A DNA stretch of 25,190 bases from a virus: positions 1 through 25,190 of IMG/VR virus record IMGVR_UViG_3300009440_000030; one strand, given 5' to 3'. This document shows positions 2 to 25,190 of this stretch, piece after piece (within the stretch, counting starts at the first letter, position 1; each line of letters starts with the position of its first letter). The notes under the pieces are model-generated. The model was given only the letters and a program-made list of their open reading frames with translations, searched no databases and was not told where the DNA came from. Made by a program: the position numbers and the translations under genes.

Positions 2-1684
2 AATGCAACTATGCCCATAGGGTTGAATGTTTTAGAATTTCAAAGACCAAATAACACGTCTTCTTTCTTCGGCAAAACAAAAGCACTTGCAGTTTGGAAA
101 GAGGCTTTAAGCGACCAAGAACTCGCTGACCTTACATACCCAACACCAACTGATCCTACGTTTGCTTTAGACTTTGATACGATAGCAACTGATTTCACAT
201 TTGCTAGAGGCTCTGAGGCTACATACGTAGATGCACAGGGGTTAATACAAAGTACTAATGAGCTAGGACCAGAAGAAATTACAAATGGAGATTTTTCTAC
301 TGATGGTATACCAAGTACAACATCTTGGTCTTTAGGTTGGTACTCTCAAACGTCAAATGTATTAATATCGGGAGGTAAACTAACACTTACAAATTCAGCA
401 TCCCAATCAACTGCATTGGCTTATGCAACGGATGGCGTATCTTCTTTAAACGTTGTAACGGTAAATAAAACTTATAAATTACAATATCGAGTAATAGAAA
501 ATAATGGAGTTACAAGTTTTAAATATTATTCTGCTGGTGGTTCTTTTATAGTTGCTCCTACTGATTTAGGGGTAACACATACAATTTATATAAAAAACAC
601 AGCCAATCAAATTTTCTTGTTTCAAAACGCTACAACAAACTCAAGTATATCAATAGACAACGTATCTATAAAAGAATACAAAACTGAAACCAACACTCCT
701 AGAATAGATTACTCAACTGGCACAGAGGCATTTTTACTAGAGCCGCAGAGTACGAATTTAGTACCTTATTCAGAGGATTTTGAAGTTTGGAATCAAATAC
801 AAAATGTAAATTTAATCTCAAATTCTACCATAAGTCCATCTGGAGAAAATAATGCTACTAAATTCTTAAGTACAACGGGAAACTCTAAAGTTAGAAATAA
901 TTTTTCAGTAGTAAGTGGAACTACATATACCTTTAGTGTGTATTGTAAAAATATAGACGCTACTTTTGTTAGGCTATTGGCTTATGATGGGGCAAATGAA
1001 TTTAGTTTGAATGTTGTTTCTCAAATAAACACATCTACTTGGACTAAAGTTTCTTTAACTTTTACAGCGACAAACACTTCAGGTTCTGGGCAAGTTCAAA
1101 TAGCAAGAGATTTACCTGATGGAGAGTCTTTGTATTTTTGGGGCGCACAATTAGAACAACAATCCTACGCAACTTCGTATATCCCAACATCGGGAACTAC
1201 AGTTACACGTAACCAAGAAACTTGTATAAACGCAACACCAGAGATAAACAGCGAGGAAGGTGTATTGTATGCAGAGATAGCTAAAAGACAAGAGGACAAT
1301 GATAATTTTATTTTAATATCATTGAATAACGCAGCTAGCAATAGCGATGCTAATAGTGTCACAATAGGTTTTAGTAATGACACAGATTTTTACTCAAGGG
1401 TAAGAGCCAATGCAGTAAATGTAATGACAGATACAACTGTTGCGACTAATGCAAATCAATTTTACAAAGTAGCGTTAAAGTACAAGAGTGGTAATATATC
1501 TGTTTTTATTGATGGGGTTAATGTTGTGAGTAATACTACAGCCTTTTCTTTTGGTGCTGTATTAGATAATTTATCTTTTGATTACAACGGTAATGGAACT
1601 TTACCTTTCTTCGGTAACACTAAAGACTTACAAGTTTACACAAAAGCATTATCAGATGCAGAACTAATAAAACTAACAACATGA
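2..1684 (+). CDS. Tail fibre / receptor-binding protein with lectin-like domains (5' end outside window)
   Basis: The frame is open from the first bases, so the real start lies upstream; the ATG at 11 is internal. The 560 or so visible residues are almost all predicted beta structure, rich in Thr, Ser and Asn. Counting from the ATG at 11, residues about 19-43 form the end of a LamG/concanavalin-A-like domain (FFGKTKALAVW, then ALSDQELADLT). A phage-fibre motif follows (FTFARGSEATYVDAQG, about 62-77), then two jelly-roll, carbohydrate-binding-module-like stretches (about 87-225 and 250-395, the second ending ATSYIPTSG). A complete LamG-like domain closes the protein, and its last 25 residues (FFGNTKDLQVYTKALSDAEL...) copy the first motif. 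Such proteins usually sit on phage tails and bind surface polysaccharide. The domain calls come from pattern recognition; the receptor role is inferred from domain type and position in a virion gene block. Confidence 0.75.
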   Translation, partial: NATMPIGLNVLEFQRPNNTSSFFGKTKALAVWKEALSDQELADLTYPTPTDPTFALDFDTIATDFTFARGSEATYVDAQGLIQSTNELGPEEITNGDFSTDGIPSTTSWSLGWYSQTSNVLISGGKLTLTNSASQSTALAYATDGVSSLNVVTVNKTYKLQYRVIENNGVTSFKYYSAGGSFIVAPTDLGVTHTIYIKNTANQIFLFQNATTNSSISIDNVSIKEYKTETNTPRIDYSTGTEAFLLEPQSTNLVPYSEDFEVWNQIQNVNLISNSTISPSGENNATKFLSTTGNSKVRNNFSVVSGTTYTFSVYCKNIDATFVRLLAYDGANEFSLNVVSQINTSTWTKVSLTFTATNTSGSGQVQIARDLPDGESLYFWGAQLEQQSYATSYIPTSGTTVTRNQETCINATPEINSEEGVLYAEIAKRQEDNDNFILISLNNAASNSDANSVTIGFSNDTDFYSRVRANAVNVMTDTTVATNANQFYKVALKYKSGNISVFIDGVNVVSNTTAFSFGAVLDNLSFDYNGNGTLPFFGNTKDLQVYTKALSDAELIKLTT

Positions 1685-2400: not shown

Positions 2401-2596
2401 TATTGGTCGGGACTATAAAAGTGATGCCATGCACTACTCTGTTGGACAGGAAGTGTATGGTGGTCATATTATAGAGAACATCATAGAGGAGGATAATAAG
2501 TTTTCGGTTTATATAAAAAAAGCTGACGAATTAATGCCTTGGAAAGACTTTTACAAAACAATGTCTATTGCTGTTGAATATGATCTACAGTACTAA
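2378..2596 (+). CDS. Small hypothetical protein
   Basis: A 72-residue protein. The upstream ATG at 2378 overlaps the previous gene by 23 bases. An in-frame ATG at 2429 (residue 18, MHYSVGQEVYGG) would remove the overlap and leave a 28-base gap. Similar short phage proteins, as I remember them, begin near this VGQ-V-G motif, so the later start is plausible. The remainder looks like a small beta-barrel with a WKDF motif and ends EYDLQY. Its TAA stop overlaps the next ATG (TAATG), implying translational coupling to the co-chaperonin-like gene. No function is known. Confidence 0.55.
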   Translation: MRLIRKISIGRDYKSDAMHYSVGQEVYGGHIIENIIEEDNKFSVYIKKADELMPWKDFYKTMSIAVEYDLQY

Positions 2597-3234
2597 TGAA
2601 AGGGTATTTAGATTTTATTGTAAAACCAGTTGATGGTAGGTACAACAATAGAAAATTTGTTGATGGTAAGGAATTGATATTAAATACGGAGTTAGAAAAC
2701 CACAACTACGTTAGTAGGATAGCTGAGGTAGTGTACGAACCGTATAAGAATGAAACAGGTATAAGCGTTGGTGATAAGGTTATAGTGCATCACAATGTAT
2801 TTAGATGCTTCAGGGACATAAGAGGAGAGGAAAAGAATAGTAAGAGTTATTATGGTGATGGTATGTATATTGTACAGTTAAACCAGATATATGCTTACGA
2901 TAAAGTAGATGAGAGTTGTAACTGCCCTAGGTGGTTTGCTTGTGAAGGCTTTAATCTAGTTAAGCCAATAAAAGAAACTAAAATGTTTTCAAGTAATTTT
3001 GAAAAACCACTAGTTGGTATTTTAAAACTAAAAGATCCAAAATTAAATGGATTACATGAGGGAGACTTGATCGGATTTGGACCAAGCTCTGAATATGAGT
3101 TTATTATAGGTGCTCAAAGATTATATAGAGTACCAACCACTTCAATAACAATTAAATATGAACGTACAGGAAACGAAGAAGAATATAATCCTAGCTGGAC
3201 AGAAAGCGGTGGAGGAATTAATAAAAGTAGCTGA
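2596..3234 (+). CDS. Probable GroES-like co-chaperonin (two beta-barrels)
   Basis: This 212-residue protein appears to contain two GroES-type barrels. The first (about residues 1-125) has a loop with a hydrophobic triplet (GKELILN, 24-30), placed where GroES carries its IVL mobile-loop motif that contacts GroEL, followed by SVGDKVIVHHNVFR (57-70), matching the GroES VGD-V-F strand. The second (about 136-190) has HEGDLIGFGP (154-163) and ends in a GroES-like terminal strand (LYRVPTTSITI). Between them lies a Cys cluster (C108, C110, C116) that might bind metal. Phages such as T4 (gp31) and RB49 encode GroES substitutes to fold their capsid proteins in host GroEL; the position just ahead of the terminase and head genes fits that role. 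The assignment rests on motif likeness, not on a search. The last 23 residues overlap the next gene and are probably dispensable. Confidence 0.6.
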   Translation: MKGYLDFIVKPVDGRYNNRKFVDGKELILNTELENHNYVSRIAEVVYEPYKNETGISVGDKVIVHHNVFRCFRDIRGEEKNSKSYYGDGMYIVQLNQIYAYDKVDESCNCPRWFACEGFNLVKPIKETKMFSSNFEKPLVGILKLKDPKLNGLHEGDLIGFGPSSEYEFIIGAQRLYRVPTTSITIKYERTGNEEEYNPSWTESGGGINKSS

Positions 3235-8119: not shown

Positions 8120-9280
8120 ATGTCAGAACAAACACAAGAAGTACCTGAGGTAATCGATGAGGTTACAGCAGAGGTAGAGAGTAAGCCAATATCATTCGAT
8201 GATGGCATAATAAAGGTTGACTTGTCAGAGCTAAATAAGCCAGAACAACAAGAACAGCCTGAGCAACAAGAACAGGAGGTTATTGAATCAGCTGTAGAAG
8301 AAGTTGTTGAACAAGTACCTGAAACAACTACTGTTGAAGAGGTTATTGACTCCGTTATAGAGGAGATAACAGAAGAAGAGGTTGTGGAACAGGTTCAAGA
8401 CTTAGCAGAAGAAATTCAAGAAGCTGTAGAGCAAGAGCAAGTTACTGGGGTTGAATTACCAGAGAATATACAAAAAGTTGTTGATTTCATAAATGAAACT
8501 AACGGTACTTTAGAAGATTACGTTAAGTTAAATCAAAACTATGACGACTTAAACGAAGATCAACTACTAATAGAGTACTATAATAGTACTAAACCACACT
8601 TAGATAGGGAGGATATAGATTTCTTAATGGAAGACAACTTCTCTTATGACGAAGACTTAGATGAAGAGAGAGATATAAGACGTAAGAAGTTAGCTATAAG
8701 AGAGGAATTAGCTAAAGCTAAGAGTCATTTAGATGGTTTAAAAAATAATTATTACGAAGAAATAAAAGGTGGTAGTAAACTATTGCCTGAACAAAAAGAA
8801 GCGGTTGACTTTTTCAATCGCTATAAAAAGGAAAACGAAGAAGCTACTAAAATAGCTGAACACAACGTGTCTACGTTTAAGAAAAAAACAGAAAATGTCT
8901 TTTCTAAGGAGTTCAAAGGTTTTGATTACTCCGTTGGTGATAAGAAATTTAGGTTTAAAGTAAACAACGCAGACGAAGTAAAGACAAACCAAAGCGATAT
9001 CAATAATTTTGTCAAGAAGTTCTTGAATGAAAAAAATGAGATGTCAGATGCTAAAGGTTATCATAAATCTTTATTTACTGCTATGAATCCTGATAAGATT
9101 GCACAGCACTTTTACGAACAAGGTAAAGCCGATGGCGTAAGAGACAGTATAATGAAGTCTAAAAATATTGATATGGATCCTAGAGGGACACATGAGAAAG
9201 TCAGTAATGAGGGTGGATTTAAAGTGCGAGCTGTAAAGGATTCTAAAACTTCTAAGTTTGGAATTAGACGAAAAAAATAA
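8120..9280 (+). CDS. Probable capsid scaffolding protein
   Basis: A 386-residue protein between portal and major capsid genes, the usual place for a scaffold, which directs procapsid assembly and then leaves or is degraded. The first 115 or so residues are strongly acidic and low in complexity (repeated EQQEQ, EEVVEQV, EEI). They are followed by a helical, charged middle (about 165-265, including a likely coiled coil DEERDIRRKKLAIREELAKAK) and a basic C-terminus ending KFGIRRKK, the end that in other phage scaffolds contacts the capsid protein. No protease motif is visible and no maturation protease gene lies beside it. The function is inferred from composition and position. Confidence 0.65.
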   Translation: MSEQTQEVPEVIDEVTAEVESKPISFDDGIIKVDLSELNKPEQQEQPEQQEQEVIESAVEEVVEQVPETTTVEEVIDSVIEEITEEEVVEQVQDLAEEIQEAVEQEQVTGVELPENIQKVVDFINETNGTLEDYVKLNQNYDDLNEDQLLIEYYNSTKPHLDREDIDFLMEDNFSYDEDLDEERDIRRKKLAIREELAKAKSHLDGLKNNYYEEIKGGSKLLPEQKEAVDFFNRYKKENEEATKIAEHNVSTFKKKTENVFSKEFKGFDYSVGDKKFRFKVNNADEVKTNQSDINNFVKKFLNEKNEMSDAKGYHKSLFTAMNPDKIAQHFYEQGKADGVRDSIMKSKNIDMDPRGTHEKVSNEGGFKVRAVKDSKTSKFGIRRKK

Positions 9281-9297: not shown

Positions 9298-10737
9298 ATG
9301 GCCGCAAACGGTTCTTTTACTGGTAGTGCAGGTGCTTTAGCACATTTAACACCTAGACCTACCCAAACATTATTTAATGACAATTACCTGTCTTTAACAG
9401 ACATGGATTTTACACAACAATTCTTACCAGAGGTATATGAGAAAGAAGTTGAGCGTTTTGGAAACAGAACAATCTCTGGATTCTTACGTATGGTTGGAGC
9501 TGAAATGCCTATGGCATCTGATCAAGTAGTTTGGTCTGAGCAAGGTAGATTACATATTGCATATGACAATGCAACAATTGCGTCAACAACTTCTTTAACT
9601 ATACCTGCAAATGCTGGTGCTTCTACAAACCTTATCGGACCTGGAGCTACTATCGTTATTGCTAGTGCTGATGGTTTTACAGTAGATAAAGCATATGTGC
9701 AAACTGTCGCTACAGTTGCTGGTGTTGCTACTATTACTTTTGCTTGTTACGGAGCTACTCAAACCACTGCTATTACAGGTACTGGTGATGTTAAAGTATT
9801 CGTATATGGTTCTGAGTATGCAAAAGGAACTCAAAATGCTGGTACTTCTGTAGATGCTGCTTTCGAGCAATTCAACAACAAGCCAATCATCTTGAGAGAC
9901 AAGTATTCAGTTAATGGATCTGACACTGCTCAAATTGGGTGGGTTGAAGTTACAACTGAAGCTGGAACATCTGGTTACTTATGGTACTTAAAATCTGAGC
10001 ATGAAGCTCGTATTCGTTTTGAGGATCAATTAGAAATGTCTATGATTGAAGCTGAACGTACTGCTGCTGGTACTACTATTACTCCAGGAGCTGGATTTGG
10101 TGGTGGAACTGCTATCACTGGTTCTGACGGTTTATTTTCAGCGCTAGAAGAAAGAGGTTTAGTTTACACTGATGCTGATTTTGATGGTGCTACTGGTTTA
10201 GATGATTTTGATCTTATTCTACAGGAACTTGACAAGCAAGGTTCTATTGAAGAGAACATGTTATTCTTAGATCGCGCAACTTCATTAGGTATCGACAATA
10301 TGCTAGCTGCACAGAATTCTTACGGAGCTGGAGGAACATCTTATGGTGTATTCGAAAACTCTGAAGATATGGCACTTAACTTAGGATTCTCTGGATTCCG
10401 TCGTGGATCTTACGATTTCTATAAAACTGACTGGAAATACTTAAACGACGCTACAACTCGTGGATTAGTTGGTGATGTTCAAGGGGTATTAGTACCTGCT
10501 GGAACTTCTTCAGTTTATGACCAAATGCTAGGGCAGAACATCTCGAGACCTTTCTTACATATTCGTTACAGAGCTTCTGAAGCGGATGACCGTAAGATGA
10601 AATCTTGGATTACTGGATCTGTTGGAGGTAATTTTACTTCTGACGAAGATGCAATGAACGTTCATTTCTTATCTGAAAGATGTTTATGTGTTCAAGCTGC
10701 TAACAACTTTATCTTGTTCAAAGATCTAGCTGGATAG
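9298..10737 (+). CDS. Major capsid protein
   Basis: A 479-residue protein in the canonical place behind portal and scaffold, and followed by a terminator. The N-terminal arm (TQTLFNDNYLSLTDMDF, DFTQQFLPEVYEKEVERFGNRTISGFLRM, about residues 22-65) and the C-terminal end (FLSERCLCVQAANNFILF) fit major capsid proteins of crAss-like/marine Bacteroidetes phages, which have the HK97 fold. A Thr/Ala/Val-rich insertion at about 88-170 looks like an extra beta domain. Codon use differs from its neighbours: of 19 Arg codons, 11 are CGT/CGC and 8 are AGA, whereas the terminase uses almost only AGA/AGG. This suggests selection for high expression. The stop is TAG; reading through it would give nine codons running into the terminator stem, so TAG is very likely a genuine stop here. 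Confidence 0.88.
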   Translation: MAANGSFTGSAGALAHLTPRPTQTLFNDNYLSLTDMDFTQQFLPEVYEKEVERFGNRTISGFLRMVGAEMPMASDQVVWSEQGRLHIAYDNATIASTTSLTIPANAGASTNLIGPGATIVIASADGFTVDKAYVQTVATVAGVATITFACYGATQTTAITGTGDVKVFVYGSEYAKGTQNAGTSVDAAFEQFNNKPIILRDKYSVNGSDTAQIGWVEVTTEAGTSGYLWYLKSEHEARIRFEDQLEMSMIEAERTAAGTTITPGAGFGGGTAITGSDGLFSALEERGLVYTDADFDGATGLDDFDLILQELDKQGSIEENMLFLDRATSLGIDNMLAAQNSYGAGGTSYGVFENSEDMALNLGFSGFRRGSYDFYKTDWKYLNDATTRGLVGDVQGVLVPAGTSSVYDQMLGQNISRPFLHIRYRASEADDRKMKSWITGSVGGNFTSDEDAMNVHFLSERCLCVQAANNFILFKDLAG

Positions 10738-13414: not shown

Positions 13415-16400
13415 ATGGCGGAACTAATACACACATTTAACGCGGGGAAGATGAATAAGGATCTCGATGAAAGATTGGTCCCTAATGGAGAATATAGAGA
13501 TGCTTTAAACTTAGAAATTGCATCGTCAGAAAGCTCACAAGTTGGTGCTTTTCAAAATATAAAAGGTAACTTAGAACTAAAGAATAAGACTTACAATGCC
13601 TCAACAGGTGCTAATACACTTTGGGAAGATGTTGATTATATATCTAGTCTAGTTAATCCTGTGTGTATAGGCTCTGTGTCTGATGAAAATTCTGATAGAA
13701 TATATTGGTTTATAGCATCCACAGGTGCTAGTGTTGTGGCTATGTATAATACTATAACTAAAGTTACCTCACCTTTGATAGTTGATAAAAACAACATATT
13801 AAAGTTTAGTGAGGATAAATTAATTACAGGCGTTAACGTGCTAGAAGGCATGTTACTTTGGACAGATAACCAAACAGAACCTAAAAAGATAACTATAAAA
13901 GACTGGGAGAACTCTACACTAAACTTTAATGTACACTCTCAAATATATGGTAGGGATTTTATAGAGCAGGATTTAACCACTATAAAGAAGTATCCTCTAC
14001 AACCACCTACTATAACTATGTCTTCTACAAAGCAAAAAGATGAGAGTGGAACTATAAGAAATGTTACAACAAATGTTAACACATCTTTCGTATACGATGA
14101 TGGTAATGGTAATATAATACCATTGACAGTAGATAGTGATCCTATAACTGTAACTTGGGAACAACAGAATGATCCAGCCTATTATAGGACAGGAGATATA
14201 TTGAATTTTGAGTTAACCGAAAACGATGCTATATTAGAAGACGCTATTATAAGATGTAGAGTTATATCAGTAATACCAACTAACATTAATGCAACTCAAA
14301 CTGGAGCAATACTGCAGGTTTTAACCGTTGGACCTCAAACAAGTGGAACCACTACTAATGATCAGTTATACAAGGTAACTCTTGAACAAGAAGATCCTTT
14401 CTACGAATTCAAATTTGCTAGATTTGGCTACAGGTACAAGTATAAAAACAACGAAATATCAGCATATTCACCTTTTTCTAATGTAGCTTTTCTACCAGGT
14501 GCATTTGATTATTCGCCTAAAGAAGGTTATAACTTAGGTATGACAAATAATGTCAGGCAGTTAGAGATATCTAATTTTGTACCGTCGGATATACCTATAG
14601 ACGTTGATGAGGTTGATGTATTATACAAAGCTACAAACAATTCAAATACATACATTGTAGATAGTTTTAAGCCTACTGACGATGAGTGGATTAATAATTC
14701 TTTTGAGATAAATACTGAGATAATAAAGTCAGTTGTAGAAAGCAATCAGTTACTAAGATCTTATGATAACGTGCCTAGATGGGCGCTAGCTCAAGAGATT
14801 TCAGCTAATAGATTATTGTATGGTAACTATACTCAAAACTTTAATTTATTAAACCCGTATACTCTAAACTCAAGTAAGATAAACATGAATGTTGGCATAC
14901 AGCCGACGGAAATAGCAACAGAGTCTACGTCACCCACAGGTAACATAGTTAGTCTAGATGGAAACTTAGTATATCCTTCTGTTAAATCTATCAGAACATA
15001 CCAACTAGGAGTTGCATACATGGATGACTATGGTAGAACAACACCTGTACTAACTAGCAATAATTCTTCTATAGTAGTTGACAAGTCTAGTGCGCAGTTC
15101 TCTAACAAGCTAACTGTTAAGTTGACAAACGTATTACCAACATATAACGGTGTAGATCAATTTCCTTATTTTAAGTACTACGTAAAAGAGACCTCTAGGG
15201 AGTATTACAATGTATGTTTAGATAGATTCTACGATGCAGAAGATGGTAACATATGGTTATCTTTTCCATCTGCTGAAAGAAACAAGATAGATGAAGAGAC
15301 CTTCTTGATACTGAAAAAAGAACATGACAACGATAAACCTGTAACTGAAAACGCTAAATATAAAGTTATAGCTATAGAGAACGAAGCGCCTTTGTTTCTA
15401 AAAGAGGAGAAACTTTCTAAGGGAACAATGGATACTGATTTCGGTGGTATAGTGGGTTTATTCCCAACAGAAGGTACAAACGAAATATGGGTTGAAAAAG
15501 ATGGAGCTACTGGATTTGATGAGGTGTTTGGAGTAGAAACAAGAGCTACCTCAGGTCAATTACTTAGGATACTAGGGGGTGTAAATGTAAGTGAATACTA
15601 TAAGATATCAACTTTCACAGTAGTTGGTACTAAAGTTAGAATGGTTATTTCTAAAGTTTTTGGACCTGACGTTGGTTTTACAACTGACGAGAATGGTAAT
15701 GCAACAACTGGTTTGAGTTTAGGTATATACGAAGTTACTTCAGATAACAAACCGGAATTCACCGGTAGATTCTTCGTTAAAGTAAACCAAGATAATATAC
15801 TGAAAGAAAAAATATTAGCAGCTGGATCTTCTAGTAGAAAATATATAAGAAAAGCTATTTCACCGTTGTACTATGCAAGCTGGAATACTCAACCAAGTGA
15901 GAGCTTTTGGAAAGATCAATGGAGAGATGCTGATTTACAGGGTCAAGTAGACAGGTTGTTCATAGATAAAATAAGAACACAATGCAATGAGCTAGCGACA
16001 AGGGGTACAGGTACTGATATTGATGGAGTTATACAAATAAGCCACGCAACTGGTTATGGTAGATCAAGGTCTACACCTCCAAACGCTCACGGTATAGTTG
16101 ATCAAAACCCTCAAATGCTAGAGCAGTTGAATACTAATGGGGCATTATTTAGGTTTGTAAACTTAGGTAATGGAGTTGGTTTTAGTGCAGACGAAGCTAC
16201 GGTATATCAAGTAACAAATACTACAGAGACACTAGGTACTACATATGATTGCCAGAACAACACAGGTGTATTTTCAGCAGGTGATGAGTGGGACGCTATA
16301 TCAAATAACATAGCTAGATGGACTATAAACTTCAAGCAGTTGGAAACAGGTAACCAGCAACTAGCATGGAATCCAATTGGTGGTGGATCAAACAATATAG

Positions 16401-17722
16401 TGCAGTGGACACAGGGTAGTCTTGATGCAAAATCGTACATAGGTATAGAGTTTTTAGATACTAATCCAGAAGATGAGACTTTTAGTAGCACTAACCCAGC
16501 GATATTCGAGACAGAACCAAAGGAAGCTACTGAGTTAGATATATACTTTGAGGTACCTGTGTCTTACACAGCTGCAGATCATGGTAATACACATGTTTTA
16601 GACTGGTTTAACTGCTATTCGTTTGGTAACGGTGTGGAATCTGATAGAATACGAGATGACTACAATCAACCAGTTATAGGCGATGGTGTTAAAGCTTCCG
16701 CTACACTAGATGAACCATATAGAGAAGAACACAGATCTAATGGTATTATATTTTCACAAATATTCAACTCAATATCTGGAGTAAACAACCTTAATCAATT
16801 TATACAAGCAGAGGGAATAACTAAAGATGTAAATCCAGAATATGGTAGCATACAGAAACTTCATTCTAGAGACACGGATTTAATAACCTTGTGTGAAAAC
16901 AAGTCTATGAGGATTCTAGCTAATAAGGATGCTCTATTTAATGCGGATGGAAGCGCTAACGTAACATCTAATAGAGCTGTTCTAGGTCAGACAGTAACTT
17001 TTGCTGGAGAATTCGGTATTGCTACAAATCCAGAATCATTTGCTAGTTTTGGTTTTAGAATGTATTACACAGATGCTAATAGAGGAACTGTTATAAGACT
17101 ATCTAGAGATGGTATAACTGAAATATCAGACTATGGTATGGATTCATTCTTCTCTGACAACTTGAGGTTGAACAATAAAATAATTGGATCTTGGGATATT
17201 GAAAAGAAAAACTACAACATATCGCTAAATAAATTAACACCATATTGGCAAAACACACTAGGTGTTGGTCAGTTCGATAGATATAATAAAGATCCTGATT
17301 GTAATCAATTTGTAAACTCACTTCCAACGCTTAGTACTACCGTTTCTTTTAAAGAGTCAGTTAACGGTTTTACTTCTAGGAAAGTATATATACCTGAGTC
17401 TGGTGTATCTATGAATAACACATACTTTACATTTAAAAATGGTCTAATATGGGAGCATGATGTTAACCCATTGTATAATACGTTTTATGGAATAGGACCT
17501 GATACTGTTAGTTTAGGATCATACTATGAGAGCTCTTTTAACGTTATATTCAACGAAAGTCCCGCTTCCGTAAAAGGTTTTAAAACACTTAACTACAGTG
17601 GTACTGGTTCAAGAAACTACATATATAAGTTATCTAGCACGGGTGATTTAGAGTATTCTATACAACAGGTTGTTGCTAACAATATAGTGCCAACTTCTTT
17701 TGAAAAGACTAAAGGTTGGTAG
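13415..17722 (+). CDS. Giant tail-hub ('muzzle'/stabilisation) protein, ended by an in-frame amber codon
   Basis: A 1435-residue structural protein. The N-terminal motif FNAGKMNKDLDERLVPNGEYRDALN (about residues 8-32), then SSQVGAFQNIKGN, matches what I remember as the hallmark start of the 'stabilisation' protein of crAss-like phages, identified as the tail 'muzzle' in the structurally solved member. Most of the rest is beta-rich, with segments such as SDRIYWFIAS and GMLLWTDNQTEPKKI near the N-terminus that suggest a beta-propeller. Conserved-looking late segments (LHSRDTDLITLCENKSMRI, RGTVIRLSRDGITEISDYGM) suggest a second propeller-like domain. The gene ends at TAG (17720-17722), but the frame stays open beyond it (next entry), so the intact protein may be 1512 residues. 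It probably closes the short tail below the ring proteins. Confidence 0.8.
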   Translation: MAELIHTFNAGKMNKDLDERLVPNGEYRDALNLEIASSESSQVGAFQNIKGNLELKNKTYNASTGANTLWEDVDYISSLVNPVCIGSVSDENSDRIYWFIASTGASVVAMYNTITKVTSPLIVDKNNILKFSEDKLITGVNVLEGMLLWTDNQTEPKKITIKDWENSTLNFNVHSQIYGRDFIEQDLTTIKKYPLQPPTITMSSTKQKDESGTIRNVTTNVNTSFVYDDGNGNIIPLTVDSDPITVTWEQQNDPAYYRTGDILNFELTENDAILEDAIIRCRVISVIPTNINATQTGAILQVLTVGPQTSGTTTNDQLYKVTLEQEDPFYEFKFARFGYRYKYKNNEISAYSPFSNVAFLPGAFDYSPKEGYNLGMTNNVRQLEISNFVPSDIPIDVDEVDVLYKATNNSNTYIVDSFKPTDDEWINNSFEINTEIIKSVVESNQLLRSYDNVPRWALAQEISANRLLYGNYTQNFNLLNPYTLNSSKINMNVGIQPTEIATESTSPTGNIVSLDGNLVYPSVKSIRTYQLGVAYMDDYGRTTPVLTSNNSSIVVDKSSAQFSNKLTVKLTNVLPTYNGVDQFPYFKYYVKETSREYYNVCLDRFYDAEDGNIWLSFPSAERNKIDEETFLILKKEHDNDKPVTENAKYKVIAIENEAPLFLKEEKLSKGTMDTDFGGIVGLFPTEGTNEIWVEKDGATGFDEVFGVETRATSGQLLRILGGVNVSEYYKISTFTVVGTKVRMVISKVFGPDVGFTTDENGNATTGLSLGIYEVTSDNKPEFTGRFFVKVNQDNILKEKILAAGSSSRKYIRKAISPLYYASWNTQPSESFWKDQWRDADLQGQVDRLFIDKIRTQCNELATRGTGTDIDGVIQISHATGYGRSRSTPPNAHGIVDQNPQMLEQLNTNGALFRFVNLGNGVGFSADEATVYQVTNTTETLGTTYDCQNNTGVFSAGDEWDAISNNIARWTINFKQLETGNQQLAWNPIGGGSNNIVQWTQGSLDAKSYIGIEFLDTNPEDETFSSTNPAIFETEPKEATELDIYFEVPVSYTAADHGNTHVLDWFNCYSFGNGVESDRIRDDYNQPVIGDGVKASATLDEPYREEHRSNGIIFSQIFNSISGVNNLNQFIQAEGITKDVNPEYGSIQKLHSRDTDLITLCENKSMRILANKDALFNADGSANVTSNRAVLGQTVTFAGEFGIATNPESFASFGFRMYYTDANRGTVIRLSRDGITEISDYGMDSFFSDNLRLNNKIIGSWDIEKKNYNISLNKLTPYWQNTLGVGQFDRYNKDPDCNQFVNSLPTLSTTVSFKESVNGFTSRKVYIPESGVSMNNTYFTFKNGLIWEHDVNPLYNTFYGIGPDTVSLGSYYESSFNVIFNESPASVKGFKTLNYSGTGSRNYIYKLSSTGDLEYSIQQVVANNIVPTSFEKTKGW
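17720..17722 (+). other. In-frame TAG interrupting the tail-hub gene
   Basis: The codons read ...AAA GGT TGG TAG ACT AAT TCT ATA ATA ACT GAT... The family pattern I remember has a Gly-Trp-Tyr followed by a similar Ser-Ile-x-Thr-Asp-x-Gln string, so TAG would stand where Tyr (TAT/TAC) is expected, one base away. Suppression, readthrough, mutation or base-calling error would all explain it. Confidence 0.7.
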
Positions 17723-17953
17723 ACTAATTCTATAATAACTGATTTACAGGAAGGTCAAGTAAAAGAGTTTGTTGATAAAGAGGGTAAAAAGTTTAATTAT
17801 ATAACAGGATTAGACACTTTTTTCACTAGCAACTGTAAGACAAACGTAGATACTAAGGAGTTCAACGTACAGGGCATAGGTAAAGCCTCTGCTATAGTAT
17901 TTCCTCCTCAAACATTGTTCAAGGTAACAAACACTTTGAACGAAGATTGCTAA
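17723..17953 (+). pseudogene. In-frame C-terminal continuation of the tail-hub protein (76 codons)
   Basis: Directly after the TAG the same frame is open for 76 codons and ends in TAA at 17951-17953. It contains no ATG, so it is unlikely to be a separate gene. The translated stretch looks like ordinary coding sequence of this phage (DLQEGQVKEFVDKEGKKFNYI, then a FNVQGIGKASAI segment) and resembles the C-terminal end of crAss-like stabilisation proteins as I remember it (KEGK-x-FNYI and FQGIG-type motifs). It fills almost all of the 250-base gap before the next gene, in a window where other gaps are at most about 130 bases. I mark it as a remnant or suppressed part of the upstream gene; which of the two cannot be told from one sequence. 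Confidence 0.7.
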
Positions 17954-17972: not shown

Positions 17973-19565
17973 ATGGCAGTACCAATTAATTATACAGTAA
18001 CAGAGGTAAGTTTCTTAGAGACTGCTGGCGTTGACTTTTCTATAGATCAGCCATCAGTAACACTTTTGCTAACACCAAACCAAGGTTACACATTAAATCT
18101 CAGTGACTTTACTGTTGTTACACCTTTGCCAAACTATGTTAGTTCTGTTGTTTTCTCTGAAGGTATTGTAGCTGGAACTCTTAACTGCTTAATAACCTAT
18201 CTACAGCCAAGTATAATGCCATTCACTGATGTACTTGTAGATGTCTGTTCTACAGGTTCAGCTGTCTTTATTGGTTATAATATTAGTGGTACTATATCTC
18301 AATGTGATGTAAGTAACACAAAAATACCAGTATCCAGCGACCCTCCGGTGCAATATTCGGGTACAGGTTTCTATAATACAACAACTACTTTCGCTACATA
18401 TGTTGTGACAGCAGAAACAACATACTACTACCCAACAGCACCAACATTGTCTGTGGTAGTTGGAAATCCTAGTGATTATTCAATAACAGCAGTTAATACA
18501 TTAGATTTACAAGGCAGAATAACTGAAACTACATTTACTATTCAGTATACTTTTCCAGCTATAGACGTTTCAAGCGATAACATATGCTTGGTTGCAAATG
18601 CTGTTTCTATATACAATCCACAAGTAAAAATAAATTCTTACAGCTTTGCACCTGGTGCAACAGTAGATCAAGATGGACAAACAACGGATTTCATAATAAA
18701 TGGTATAGAAGGTGCCAATTGGACATTGAATGTGCTATCTTCTAACTTAGTTAACATAGTTAATACATCGGGAGTTATTGATTCTACAGGTACTTTCACT
18801 GTGCCTATACCATTTCCATCTACGTTAATAGATCAAACATGGACAATAACACTAGCTGGTGGAGACTTGTCTAGTTCTTTTGATACACCTAACGGTCAGC
18901 CATCTGTAATTGTACTAAATCAATATATAGATACTACTTTAGGCTTCGCTTTTACTAGCACCAACTCCGGTATAACAGTAGGATCAGCTACTACTCTAAC
19001 TTTTCCACCTTATGCGCAGCAATACCAATCACCGTTTCAGTATATAGTAACAGCGACATCCACTAATGATGTTGTTTTGTCACCAATACCTTTTAATAAT
19101 GCTTGGACTAACCAAAACGCTAGTGGAAATTTATATATTCAAGAGGTTGTAGGTTCTTCTTTTGTTATAAACAACAATACCACGCCGTCTACTATTACAG
19201 CAACTTTATCCGTGTCAGTAGATCAAGCAGGTAGACCTAATATGGTTAGTGAACTTGACTTAGACGGATACATACAAGAAGGTGGTTGCTGGGAGGTTAC
19301 ACTTTGCGGTAGCGCCACAACATACAACGTGAGTAATACCTTAGGGTACTCTGGTACATTACCAAGCGTGTTAGGTAACTTAAACTATGCTTGGGCTGTC
19401 AATGATATTGTTCAATTTAAAGATGTCCCTAGTGGAACACTATATTGTGGTACAATAACGGCATTTCTTCCAAACATATCTCCAGATCATTACATAGATG
19501 AGGGTTTAAATGGCGACATAACACCATTCAACAACTGCTTAACATGTGAAAATCAACTTCCTTAA
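17973..19565 (+). CDS. Beta-sandwich appendage protein with a BACON/Ig-like domain
   Basis: A 530-residue protein, rich in Thr, Ser, Val and Asn with few charged residues, predicted nearly all beta. The N-terminal part (about 25-95, LLLTPNQGYTLNLSDFTVV...) is an Ig-like repeat of a kind common in marine phage structural proteins. A second similar unit covers about 150-210. Residues about 245-300 (NWTLNVLSSNLVNIVNTSGVID, then FTVPIPFP, then WTITLAGG) follow the BACON pattern of W-T-V, TSG, FTV-x-PN and a final TITV strand. BACON domains are carbohydrate-binding-like modules in Bacteroidetes and in the tail protein of crAssphage. The C-terminus carries Cys pairs (CWEVTLC, CLTC). It is likely a tail appendage or glycan-binding protein. 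The BACON call is weak; the beta-rich structural nature is firm. Confidence 0.6.
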   Translation: MAVPINYTVTEVSFLETAGVDFSIDQPSVTLLLTPNQGYTLNLSDFTVVTPLPNYVSSVVFSEGIVAGTLNCLITYLQPSIMPFTDVLVDVCSTGSAVFIGYNISGTISQCDVSNTKIPVSSDPPVQYSGTGFYNTTTTFATYVVTAETTYYYPTAPTLSVVVGNPSDYSITAVNTLDLQGRITETTFTIQYTFPAIDVSSDNICLVANAVSIYNPQVKINSYSFAPGATVDQDGQTTDFIINGIEGANWTLNVLSSNLVNIVNTSGVIDSTGTFTVPIPFPSTLIDQTWTITLAGGDLSSSFDTPNGQPSVIVLNQYIDTTLGFAFTSTNSGITVGSATTLTFPPYAQQYQSPFQYIVTATSTNDVVLSPIPFNNAWTNQNASGNLYIQEVVGSSFVINNNTTPSTITATLSVSVDQAGRPNMVSELDLDGYIQEGGCWEVTLCGSATTYNVSNTLGYSGTLPSVLGNLNYAWAVNDIVQFKDVPSGTLYCGTITAFLPNISPDHYIDEGLNGDITPFNNCLTCENQLP

Positions 19566-19574
19566 TAAATAAAT

Positions 19575-19916
19575 ATGGGTATTATAACTATAACTTTTCC
19601 AAATCCACTAAATGTTTCTATACAAGAAGGAGACACTGCTTACTACACTAATGATGTCAACGGTAAGAACATACAAGTGATAGGTGAGATAACCTCTGTT
19701 TCTGGATCTACTATAATGGTTGAAGAGCAGCCAACACTAGCTACGGTGTCTGAAGGCGTCTTAACACTTGATAGTTTCATATTGTTTAGTAAAACATCTC
19801 TAGTTAATTCAAGTGGTTTAAAAGGGTATTACGCTGAGATGCAGTTCAAAAACGATGCAGTGGATTACGCTGAGCTATTCCTTGTTGGTTCTGAAATATT
19901 TGAGAGTAGTAAATAA
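19575..19916 (+). CDS. Small conserved hypothetical virion-block protein
   Basis: A 113-residue protein starting nine bases after the previous stop with an ataaatATG leader. It is a small beta protein: MGIITITFPNPLNVSIQEGDTAYYT at the start, GEITSVSGSTIMVEE in the middle and FILFSK (about 67-72) followed by GYYAEMQFKNDAVDYAELFLVGSEIFESSK at the end. I remember near-identical layouts (FILFSK..., GY-AE...F-N, SEIFESSK) in many marine phages of unknown function, always in the tail or internal-protein region. The role is unknown; adaptor or tail-tip part is conjecture. Confidence 0.65.
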   Translation: MGIITITFPNPLNVSIQEGDTAYYTNDVNGKNIQVIGEITSVSGSTIMVEEQPTLATVSEGVLTLDSFILFSKTSLVNSSGLKGYYAEMQFKNDAVDYAELFLVGSEIFESSK

Positions 19917-21990: not shown

Positions 21991-24900
21991 ATGGATGAGT
22001 TAAATGATATTGTTCAAAAAATGATTGACTCGGGTGAGTCAGAGGAGAACATTAAAACAGTAATAGAAGGATACAAGCCGCAAGAAGGACCAATGACTAT
22101 GGATGAGTTGGAGAGTAGAGCGGGAAAGCCACAAGACTCTGTAAGTGCGGATCCAACTGCGGAGTCAAGAGATATGGATTCAACATCGGAAGAACCTTTA
22201 TCGGCTTGGCAGTCGGTTAAAAACTCATTTTCAAACCTAGGTGAACAAATAGGAGACGTTAAGGAATTTTGGCTTGATGATGATGGTGCAAATGCATCGT
22301 TACAAATAGCTACTAATGCTGTTGCTAGTATGGTTTTTGGCCAAGATAGCGTTGATAAATTCGTTGAAGGAGATGAGAACAAGATGGGTCTAGGCTCTGA
22401 GACAACTCTAGAGAACATCGAAGCATTTAAAAAAGAAAAGCTAGAATCTAAAAGAACAGTAGGTATAATAGACAGCGTTAAAGAAGGTGATATCGGTGGT
22501 GTTATAGCAGGTAGTATAAACGCTGTGACTAGTATGCTTGGTAGTATCGCCTACGGTGCTGGTACATTAACAACTGGTTTCTTCATGGACTACGCTGCAG
22601 AGAACTACGTATCGTTCAATGAAATGAAGGCAGAAAATCTAGGCCTAAGTTTAGATGAGCTTATAAAGTCAGGGGAAGCTGATACGGCTATCCCTGTTGG
22701 TATGGCTGCTGTTTCTCAAGGTCTAGAGATGGTTGGACTTGGTACTATCTTAAAAGCATCTAAAGGAGCATTTAAGGGTACTGGTGGATCTGGATTAATG
22801 GGTACTGGTAGTAAGTATTTAGCTGAAAAGTTAATATATAGTAAAAGTGCTAGATCAACTATGAATGTTTTATCCACTGGTTTAACAGAAATGTCAACTG
22901 AGATATTACAACACGCTGCTGACGAGGTAAACAAAGAATATGGTAGAGTTTCTGGAACAGAAGAAGAAGCTAAAGCCGGTAAAGCGTTTATAGATGCTGT
23001 AACTAGTCAAGAAGGTTGGGAGGCAGGTATACAAGGTTTCTTAGGTGGAGCTGGTATGGTTGGTGGTACCTACTCCGCTAAAGCTATGAACACTATAAGG
23101 ACTGTAGTTGATGGTGATGCTATAGAGACGAAGATAAACGAGTTATCTGGTCTTAGAAATGAAATGAAGCAAGCTAAAGATAAAACTGTAATAAGTGGCT
23201 TGCAAAAGAAGATAGATGCTAAGGAATCTGAGATATCAGACTCTATAGTCAGAGGTAACGAAATATTCGAGAGTTTAGATCCAAAGCAAGTTAAAGAAAT
23301 AGATAACTTAACAGATCTTGCTGATGCTGCTGCTTTTAATATAACAGAGCTAAATAAGAAGTTAAGAAGAGGTGTTATATCTGAGGCTCAGTATGAGTCT
23401 GCTAAAGAAGGTTTCACAATGGAATACGACTCGGCTAAGTCTAGGTTAGTTGAGATGAGGTTAGGTGAAAACATAGCTTTTGCTCAAAAAGAAGCTGCTA
23501 AAAGAGGTTTGGAAGTTGAAGTGTATGAAACTACAGCTGAGACAGAGCAAGCTCTTGAAGCAACTAATGTGAAAGAAGAAGGTAAGCAAGAGTTTAGAGA
23601 TTCTAAGAATAACATAGCTGGATTTGCTGTTGGTAGAAAGATATTTATAAACAAAGAAGTCGCTAGAAACACAGGTGCTATAAACGTTGGTAGTCACGAG
23701 TTGTTACACCCTATACTTAAGGTTATGGTTGGTGATACACAGGCTCAAAGTAAGATAGTTAAACAGTTTAGAAAATCAATGACATCGACGCAAAGAAGAG
23801 TTATTGATAAGCAGATGAAAGACAGGGGATACACCTCGGCTAGTCAAGTAGCAACAGAATACATAAATGTATTTTCAGACGCATTAGCTAAAGGTCAGAT
23901 AAACTATGACAAGACATCTATGGAGAAAATAGGTGATGCTATTGTTGGGTTATTCAAACCTAAAGGTTTTGAGAATATATCTTTTGAGAGTGGTCAAGAT
24001 GTTTACAACTTCATGAAGGAGTATGATAAGAGTGGTAAAAAAGGTAAACTAACTAAAGCAGCTAAAAAAGCAATAGATAGTGAAGGAAAGATGATGACTA
24101 CGCCTGTACAGAATCTCCAGAAAGACGGTGATATAAAGAAGAGTCAATCAAAGTCCGATGTATCTTTTTCTAAAAACAAAGTAGCAGACCTAGAACAAGA
24201 GCTAGAGACACTTAACGAATTAGAGTATGAGTTAGATCAAGACGATTTTGTAAATCTAAAGTCTAATCTAGAGTTGAAGATAAGAATGGCTAAGAAAAGC
24301 CAAGCTAAAGCTGCTGAAGAAGGACCTAAGGAGGTTAAGAAGGATACTAAAAAGAAAGATAAAAAAGAGGTTAAGAAGGAAGACGGTAAAAAGAAGAAGA
24401 ATAAAAAGAAAGAAGCAAACAAGTTAGCCGGTAAGTATAAAGACGGGAGCATAACACCTGCTGAGGAAGCTGAGTTGGTTAAACAATACCAAGCTATAGC
24501 CGTAGAAGCTCTTGGTTATAGAGAAGCAAAAGGTAGTATAACTAGAGCTGAAGCTATTTCTTTTGTTGATCAGTTTTTTGAGGGTATACTCAATAGGTAT
24601 AATCCCTATACGTCTAAATTCTCTACATTCATAAACAGTAATATAAGACCTAAAAGACAGGCTTTTTATCAGCAAGAAATAGGTGATGGTTATTTAAGTA
24701 GAATTGATGATCCAGAAAACAAAAAACAAATAGCCAATCAAGAGGTTGAAAGAACTAGTGAGGTATCTGCTCAGAATGAACAAAAACTTATCGATGTAAG
24801 AAATAGTAGGTATGTTAAAGACAAGATGGCAGATATAGAGAATGCTGTTGACGTTAAACCAGAGGAGTTATCCTTCTATACATTTAAGGTTGTCGCTGAT

Positions 24901-25190
24901 AAGTTCGCCGCTAAAGTTGCTGAAATAATATTCGATGTGCCATTAAAGAAGCTAGACAACCCTCAGAATAATTTAACATACGCTAAGAAATTTGTTAATG
25001 GATATCCTGAGAAATCTGAAGCTGGTCGTATACAAGATTTATTTAGAACGTCTGAAGAAACAAAAAGCTTTATAAAAACCTTACCTGAGTTTAACATAGC
25101 AGGTAATGAGGTTAATGTAAACGAAACGGGTGAAATAATAGATGTTTCAGATACTGCAAAAGGTTATTCTTTGAATACGCCTTCTCTAGT
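21991..25190 (+). CDS. Giant internal virion protein with zinc-peptidase signature (3' end outside window)
   Basis: The frame is open from ATG 21991 to the window end: at least 1066 residues, no stop seen. Residues 1-90 are acidic and likely disordered. Hydrophobic Gly/Ala segments follow at about 169-200 (GGVIAGSINAVTSMLGSIAYGAG...) and about 341-358 (GIQGFLGGAGMVGG), separated by amphipathic helices. A charged coiled-coil part covers about 370-500. A probable zinc metallopeptidase domain spans about 540-640: strand KIFIN, then HELLH (569-573), then EYINVFSDAL with E623 as possible third zinc ligand. A Lys-rich linker (about 771-811) leads to a helical part (about 825-895, RYNPYTSKFSTFINSNIRPKRQAF) that recalls sigma-70 region 2. 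The layout suits a protein injected with the DNA. The metal-ligand assignment and the sigma likeness are inferences. Confidence 0.75.
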   Translation, partial: MDELNDIVQKMIDSGESEENIKTVIEGYKPQEGPMTMDELESRAGKPQDSVSADPTAESRDMDSTSEEPLSAWQSVKNSFSNLGEQIGDVKEFWLDDDGANASLQIATNAVASMVFGQDSVDKFVEGDENKMGLGSETTLENIEAFKKEKLESKRTVGIIDSVKEGDIGGVIAGSINAVTSMLGSIAYGAGTLTTGFFMDYAAENYVSFNEMKAENLGLSLDELIKSGEADTAIPVGMAAVSQGLEMVGLGTILKASKGAFKGTGGSGLMGTGSKYLAEKLIYSKSARSTMNVLSTGLTEMSTEILQHAADEVNKEYGRVSGTEEEAKAGKAFIDAVTSQEGWEAGIQGFLGGAGMVGGTYSAKAMNTIRTVVDGDAIETKINELSGLRNEMKQAKDKTVISGLQKKIDAKESEISDSIVRGNEIFESLDPKQVKEIDNLTDLADAAAFNITELNKKLRRGVISEAQYESAKEGFTMEYDSAKSRLVEMRLGENIAFAQKEAAKRGLEVEVYETTAETEQALEATNVKEEGKQEFRDSKNNIAGFAVGRKIFINKEVARNTGAINVGSHELLHPILKVMVGDTQAQSKIVKQFRKSMTSTQRRVIDKQMKDRGYTSASQVATEYINVFSDALAKGQINYDKTSMEKIGDAIVGLFKPKGFENISFESGQDVYNFMKEYDKSGKKGKLTKAAKKAIDSEGKMMTTPVQNLQKDGDIKKSQSKSDVSFSKNKVADLEQELETLNELEYELDQDDFVNLKSNLELKIRMAKKSQAKAAEEGPKEVKKDTKKKDKKEVKKEDGKKKKNKKKEANKLAGKYKDGSITPAEEAELVKQYQAIAVEALGYREAKGSITRAEAISFVDQFFEGILNRYNPYTSKFSTFINSNIRPKRQAFYQQEIGDGYLSRIDDPENKKQIANQEVERTSEVSAQNEQKLIDVRNSRYVKDKMADIENAVDVKPEELSFYTFKVVADKFAAKVAEIIFDVPLKKLDNPQNNLTYAKKFVNGYPEKSEAGRIQDLFRTSEETKSFIKTLPEFNIAGNEVNVNETGEIIDVSDTAKGYSLNTPSL

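Follow-up and report, generated by a model that had tools for sequence, protein, structure and literature searches.

The reading frame that opens at 13415 on the plus strand of the window (the whole stretch analysed, 25,190 nucleotides of IMG/VR record IMGVR_UViG_3300009440_000030) raises the question of what a single in-frame TAG means in a phage virion gene. The first-pass annotation described a 1435-residue ORF (13415-17722) that ends at TAG 17720-17722 (codon 1436), followed by 76 sense codons without a Met (17723-17950) and a TAA at 17951-17953. All of this was confirmed in the sequence, and the two motifs quoted from the stretch after the TAG, EFVDKEGKKFNYI and FNVQGIG, are indeed there. 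Read through the TAG, 13415-17953 gives a product of 1512 residues, and the next ATG lies at 17973, 20 bp beyond the TAA. Recoding, readthrough, nonsense mutation and sequence error had all been listed as explanations; the last two stood up to analysis, and the first two did not. We give a probability of about 95% to the reading that the locus is one muzzle gene of 1512 residues, in which the Tyr codon 1436 was turned into TAG by one private base, either through a sequencing or assembly error or as a rare amber allele.

Family and predicted fold of the gene

The gene at 13415-17953 matched phrog_14478, a virion structural protein family, with an E value of 1.5e-127. The Pfam domain crAss_MUZ_C was matched at E <= 0.01 by 59 of 60 relatives. 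Three relatives (L020, L050 and L085) exceeded the curated Pfam cut-off, and L020 and L085 carried both crAss_MUZ_C and crAss_MUZ. AlphaFold2 models, built from an intact sibling of the window's gene, reached medium confidence. The top fold match of the C-terminal 362 residues was the muzzle protein of phicrAss001 (E 1.3e-5), and that of a 1200-residue model (residues 313-1512) was 7qol_P (Foldseek E 1.0e-16). Compared with the phicrAss001 muzzle, residues 313-1512 gave a VIA Z score of 12.4 over 427 residues, the best of 995 chains. The medium-confidence model thus resembled in fold phicrAss001 gp44, a protein with a β-propeller, Ig and crass domains (PDB 7QOK, 7QOL; PMC10172136; Pfam PF25729 crAss_MUZ_C and PF25731 crAss_MUZ). 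Although gp44 was the best fold match, a sequence-profile search against PDB chains returned no match for the gene, and the window's own Pfam muzzle score (18.1 bits) stayed under the curated cut-off of 27. In the last 76 residues the prediction had low confidence (pLDDT ~33-64), so that the model gives no guide to the fold of this tail end.

The gene order was consistent with this assignment. The window carries TerL, portal, further virion structural genes and then the muzzle gene, which thus lies in the structural block after the terminase, portal, capsid and ring-like genes. In Calle_1, the terminase, portal, structural and muzzle genes follow the same order. The virion structural proteins of Cellulophaga phages phi38:1 and Calle_1 (Pervagoviridae, Callevirus) and of Flavobacterium phage elemoA (Elemovirus) were matched by tblastn with E values of 3e-41 and 3e-46. 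They resemble the window in the gene order around the muzzle gene and in a C-terminal KEGK...Y motif, whereas their identity is only ~30%, their C-termini are longer and diverged, and they have no stop at the TAG site. We also considered the "structural protein x2" annotation of elemoA phages as a possible split muzzle gene. The second feature proved to be the gene next upstream, with a 13-bp overlap, and the muzzle ORF is unbroken.

Taken together, the PHROG match, the Pfam matches of the relatives and the fold match bore out the proposed membership of the crAss-like muzzle family, and by these matches and the model the gene is a homologue of the crAss-like tail muzzle protein. Compared with the earlier name, "tail-hub gene", muzzle gene is the better one. 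In phicrAss001 the muzzle forms a hexameric gate at the tail tip (PMC10172136).

Conservation beyond the TAG

Scanning IMG/VR with the read-through protein identified 79 loci with relatives. The alignment of the 1512-residue protein with these relatives, a step proposed in the first-pass annotation, placed the TAG mostly opposite Tyr. The codon aligned to the TAG was a sense codon in all 68 relatives that cover the site, with no stop and no Gln. It encoded Tyr (TAT or TAC) in 50 of them, Phe in five and Thr in three; Trp, Ala and Val occurred twice each, and Arg, His, Lys and Ser once each. The expectation of a Tyr at this position, one base away from TAG, thus agreed with the family residue.

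The continuation of the gene past the TAG was equally regular. None of the 68 homologues ended at the equivalent site, and every one aligned on through the stretch in the same ORF, as would be expected if the gene carries on through the 76 codons. In a set of 19 close copies, made up of the sibling L013 and 18 relatives, the stretch was under purifying selection, with a median pN of 0.217 and pS of 0.758, much like the 285 codons preceding the TAG site (0.190 and 0.718). Two residues within it, G1447 and E1456, were invariant in 50 of 50 aligned sequences. In relatives matched to the domain end, the crAss_MUZ_C match ran 28-30 residues past the TAG-equivalent residue and finished in a KEGK-x-[FY]-x-Y-like motif, one that the first-pass annotation had noticed. 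The last third of crAss_MUZ_C therefore falls beyond the TAG, which splits a single domain. Given the stop frequency of 8.2% in the window's non-coding frames, 76 open codons would arise by chance with P ~0.0015. The chance opening of such a frame is irrelevant here, because the 76 codons are homologous to those of 68 relatives.

The same-ORF continuation, the selection, the invariant residues and the Pfam domain running past the TAG indicate that, as judged by sequence comparison, the 76 codons (17723-17950) form the C-terminal end of a single gene of 1512 residues. Its ordinary stop is the TAA at 17951-17953, where the gene of the intact sibling L013 ends as well. An independent downstream gene at 17723-17950 was rejected, since the stretch has no ATG and no family of its own and aligns inside the muzzle ORF in all relatives.

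Records of the same virus

Two other IMG/VR records represent the same virus, being 99.94-99.98% identical to the window, and both have TAT at codon 1436. The first (L013/G001, 3300025632_000051, 30,690 bp) shares 21,776 bases with the window and differs at 4 of them; the second (L083/L088/G002, 3300025874_000131, 19,657 bp) differs at 11 of 19,108. When IMG/VR was scanned for the 40-bp context and any base was allowed at the third codon position, these two siblings were the only matches and no record had TAG, although records very near the window's own may have been left out. Because the near-identical records both have TAT, the TAG is, on the assembled records, a one-base change private to this contig.

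Only four differences were private to the window, at 8697, 10545, 10557 and 17722. Those at 10545 and 10557 were synonymous. The base at 8697 produces Ile193 in the gene at 8120-9280; the two siblings have Arg there, and Ile occurs in none of the 76 relatives covering the site. A random substitution in these genes yields a stop ~5% of the time, so a nonsense change among four private ones, with an unremarkable probability of 0.18, is not surprising.

A separate feature was seen in the second sibling, L088, which breaks off in a carbohydrate-binding tail gene (window 1173-1270 and 1606-1649). Five synonymous differences within 38 bases are followed there by a copy of 1173-1270 at 94% identity, a pattern suggesting that the stretch is repeated or recombining.

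Origin of the private base

According to the proposed reading, 13415-17953 would encode a single protein of 1512 residues, the tail muzzle that forms the hexameric gate at the tail tip of crAss-like podoviruses, and in the assembled copy one base change causes Tyr codon 1436 to be read as a TAG stop. The change would have come from a sequencing or assembly error, or from a rare nonsense allele in the sampled population. From the assembled sequence, the odds between error and a rare natural amber allele are about even. The second private non-synonymous change (8697), at a site where close relatives agree, leans slightly to error. An assembled consensus base is usually backed by several reads, which leans somewhat to a real allele. 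The main Illumina error motif is a 3-mer ending in GG (PMC4787001). This motif was discarded as a direct cause, since 17722 is preceded by GTA on one strand and, when the other is read, by AGT, neither of which ends in GG. If the TAG is real, the product would be a truncated muzzle of 1435 residues lacking the conserved last 77, and a virus carrying it would probably be defective unless its host had an amber suppressor.

One further lone in-frame stop in the muzzle gene was found among the 79 relatives, a TAA at 10544-10546 of L044 (3300021197_000448), at or beside a conserved Glu. It differs from the window's TAG in place and in stop codon, and the two have no link through the genetic code. 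This unrelated case shows that isolated stops occur in such contigs. A literature search for comparable lone nonsense calls found nothing useful. The lone TAG in the muzzle gene is an ordinary finding.

Alternative readings of the TAG

Among the alternatives, the one that survived best is a real amber allele sustained by a host whose chromosome encodes an amber-suppressor tRNA, which would make the phage conditional in the manner of laboratory amber mutants. A host suppressor tRNA can suppress an in-frame TAG. However, both sibling records have TAT, and nothing in the data points to such a host, so we consider this reading very improbable. There is a similarly slim chance that a muzzle amber allele in the marine phage population is read through in suppressor tRNA hosts as an early step to TAG recoding. 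Should the allele prove real and be suppressed, it would exemplify early stop-codon reassignment in nature, a direction to which nothing here points.

Recoding of TAG by the phage itself, in which a suppressor tRNA inserts Gln at TAG codons of late genes (code 15-like), as in several gut crAss-like phages, had been emphasized in the first-pass annotation. In Crassvirales, TAG or TGA is recoded chiefly in late genes (PMC7886860, PMC9523058), and the gene here, with its in-frame TAG, is broadly of this type, a late structural gene. Unlike the code 15 phages, it has a single TAG, in one contig only. No second in-frame TAG occurs in the ~8,200 codons of the window, and TerL, portal, the gene at 8120-9280 and the capsid-region gene at 9298-10737 have none. 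TAG is the plain stop of three other genes in the window, and relatives of 9298-10737 stop, by TAG or TAA, no more than a few codons from where the window's gene does. Reading TAG as sense raised the coding density by only 1.1%, compared with the gain of >10% used as the criterion for contigs of 5-100 kb (PMC9523058). Gln was found at the aligned site in 0 of 68 relatives, and the siblings' TAT adds to the evidence against recoding. The search for a suppressor tRNA proposed in the first-pass annotation found none with a CUA anticodon in the window (an incomplete phage genome), in 45 loci or in 19 whole related records. The 19 records had tRNAs for Met and Ala only, and neither the window nor the 45 loci contained any tRNA gene. 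The siblings' TAT, the lone TAG and the TAG stops elsewhere thus contradict the emphasis on recoding, to which we assign almost no probability. Since an ordinary amino acid stands at this position in two near-identical copies and in 68 of 68 related genes, the TAG would be an error or a chance nonsense mutation, and the claim of a new reading of the genetic code is not supported.

Programmed or leaky readthrough, with products of 1435 and 1512 residues, is known as a mechanism from the RNA phage Q-beta and from luteovirus coat proteins, and the open frame and conserved C-terminal extension would suit it; but programmed readthrough stops are conserved, whereas this one is private, occurring in none of the 68 relatives and in neither of the two siblings (both TAT), and it falls inside a single Pfam domain, so that the suggestion of two products found no support and is extremely unlikely.

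Adjacent genes and other features of the window

The gene that follows (17973-19565, plus strand, 530 aa) has its own ATG. It is separate in most relatives, while in a few its homologue is fused into the muzzle ORF (L062:10001-15970, L041:10001-16003, and also L050, L037 and L039). In L010, L008, L006 and L022, the muzzle end is followed first by ~410 extra C-terminal residues of unrelated sequence and then by a separate homologue of the 530-aa protein. Gene fusion and splitting seem to take place at the C-terminal end of the muzzle. The 241 positions of phrog_18548 matched two places: its first part matched muzzle 17336-17614 (residues 1308-1400), and its last part a separate 113-aa gene at 19575-19916. 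As both are matched by one PHROG, this hints that the muzzle C-terminal region and the 113-aa gene are joined in some phages.

Elsewhere in the window, the gene at 2596-3234, shortly upstream of the terminase gene, matched phrog_13932, the phage co-chaperonin GroES family (E 4.6e-15). An open-ended gene of at least 1066 residues (21991-25190) had no Pfam or PHROG match.

Implications

The analysis clears away a misleading hint of recoding in marine crAss-like phages. It also offers an example of a conserved virion gene split by one private base in a metagenome contig. A 1512-residue protein family of marine phages is now tied, through the sequence and fold matches, to the crassvirus muzzle.
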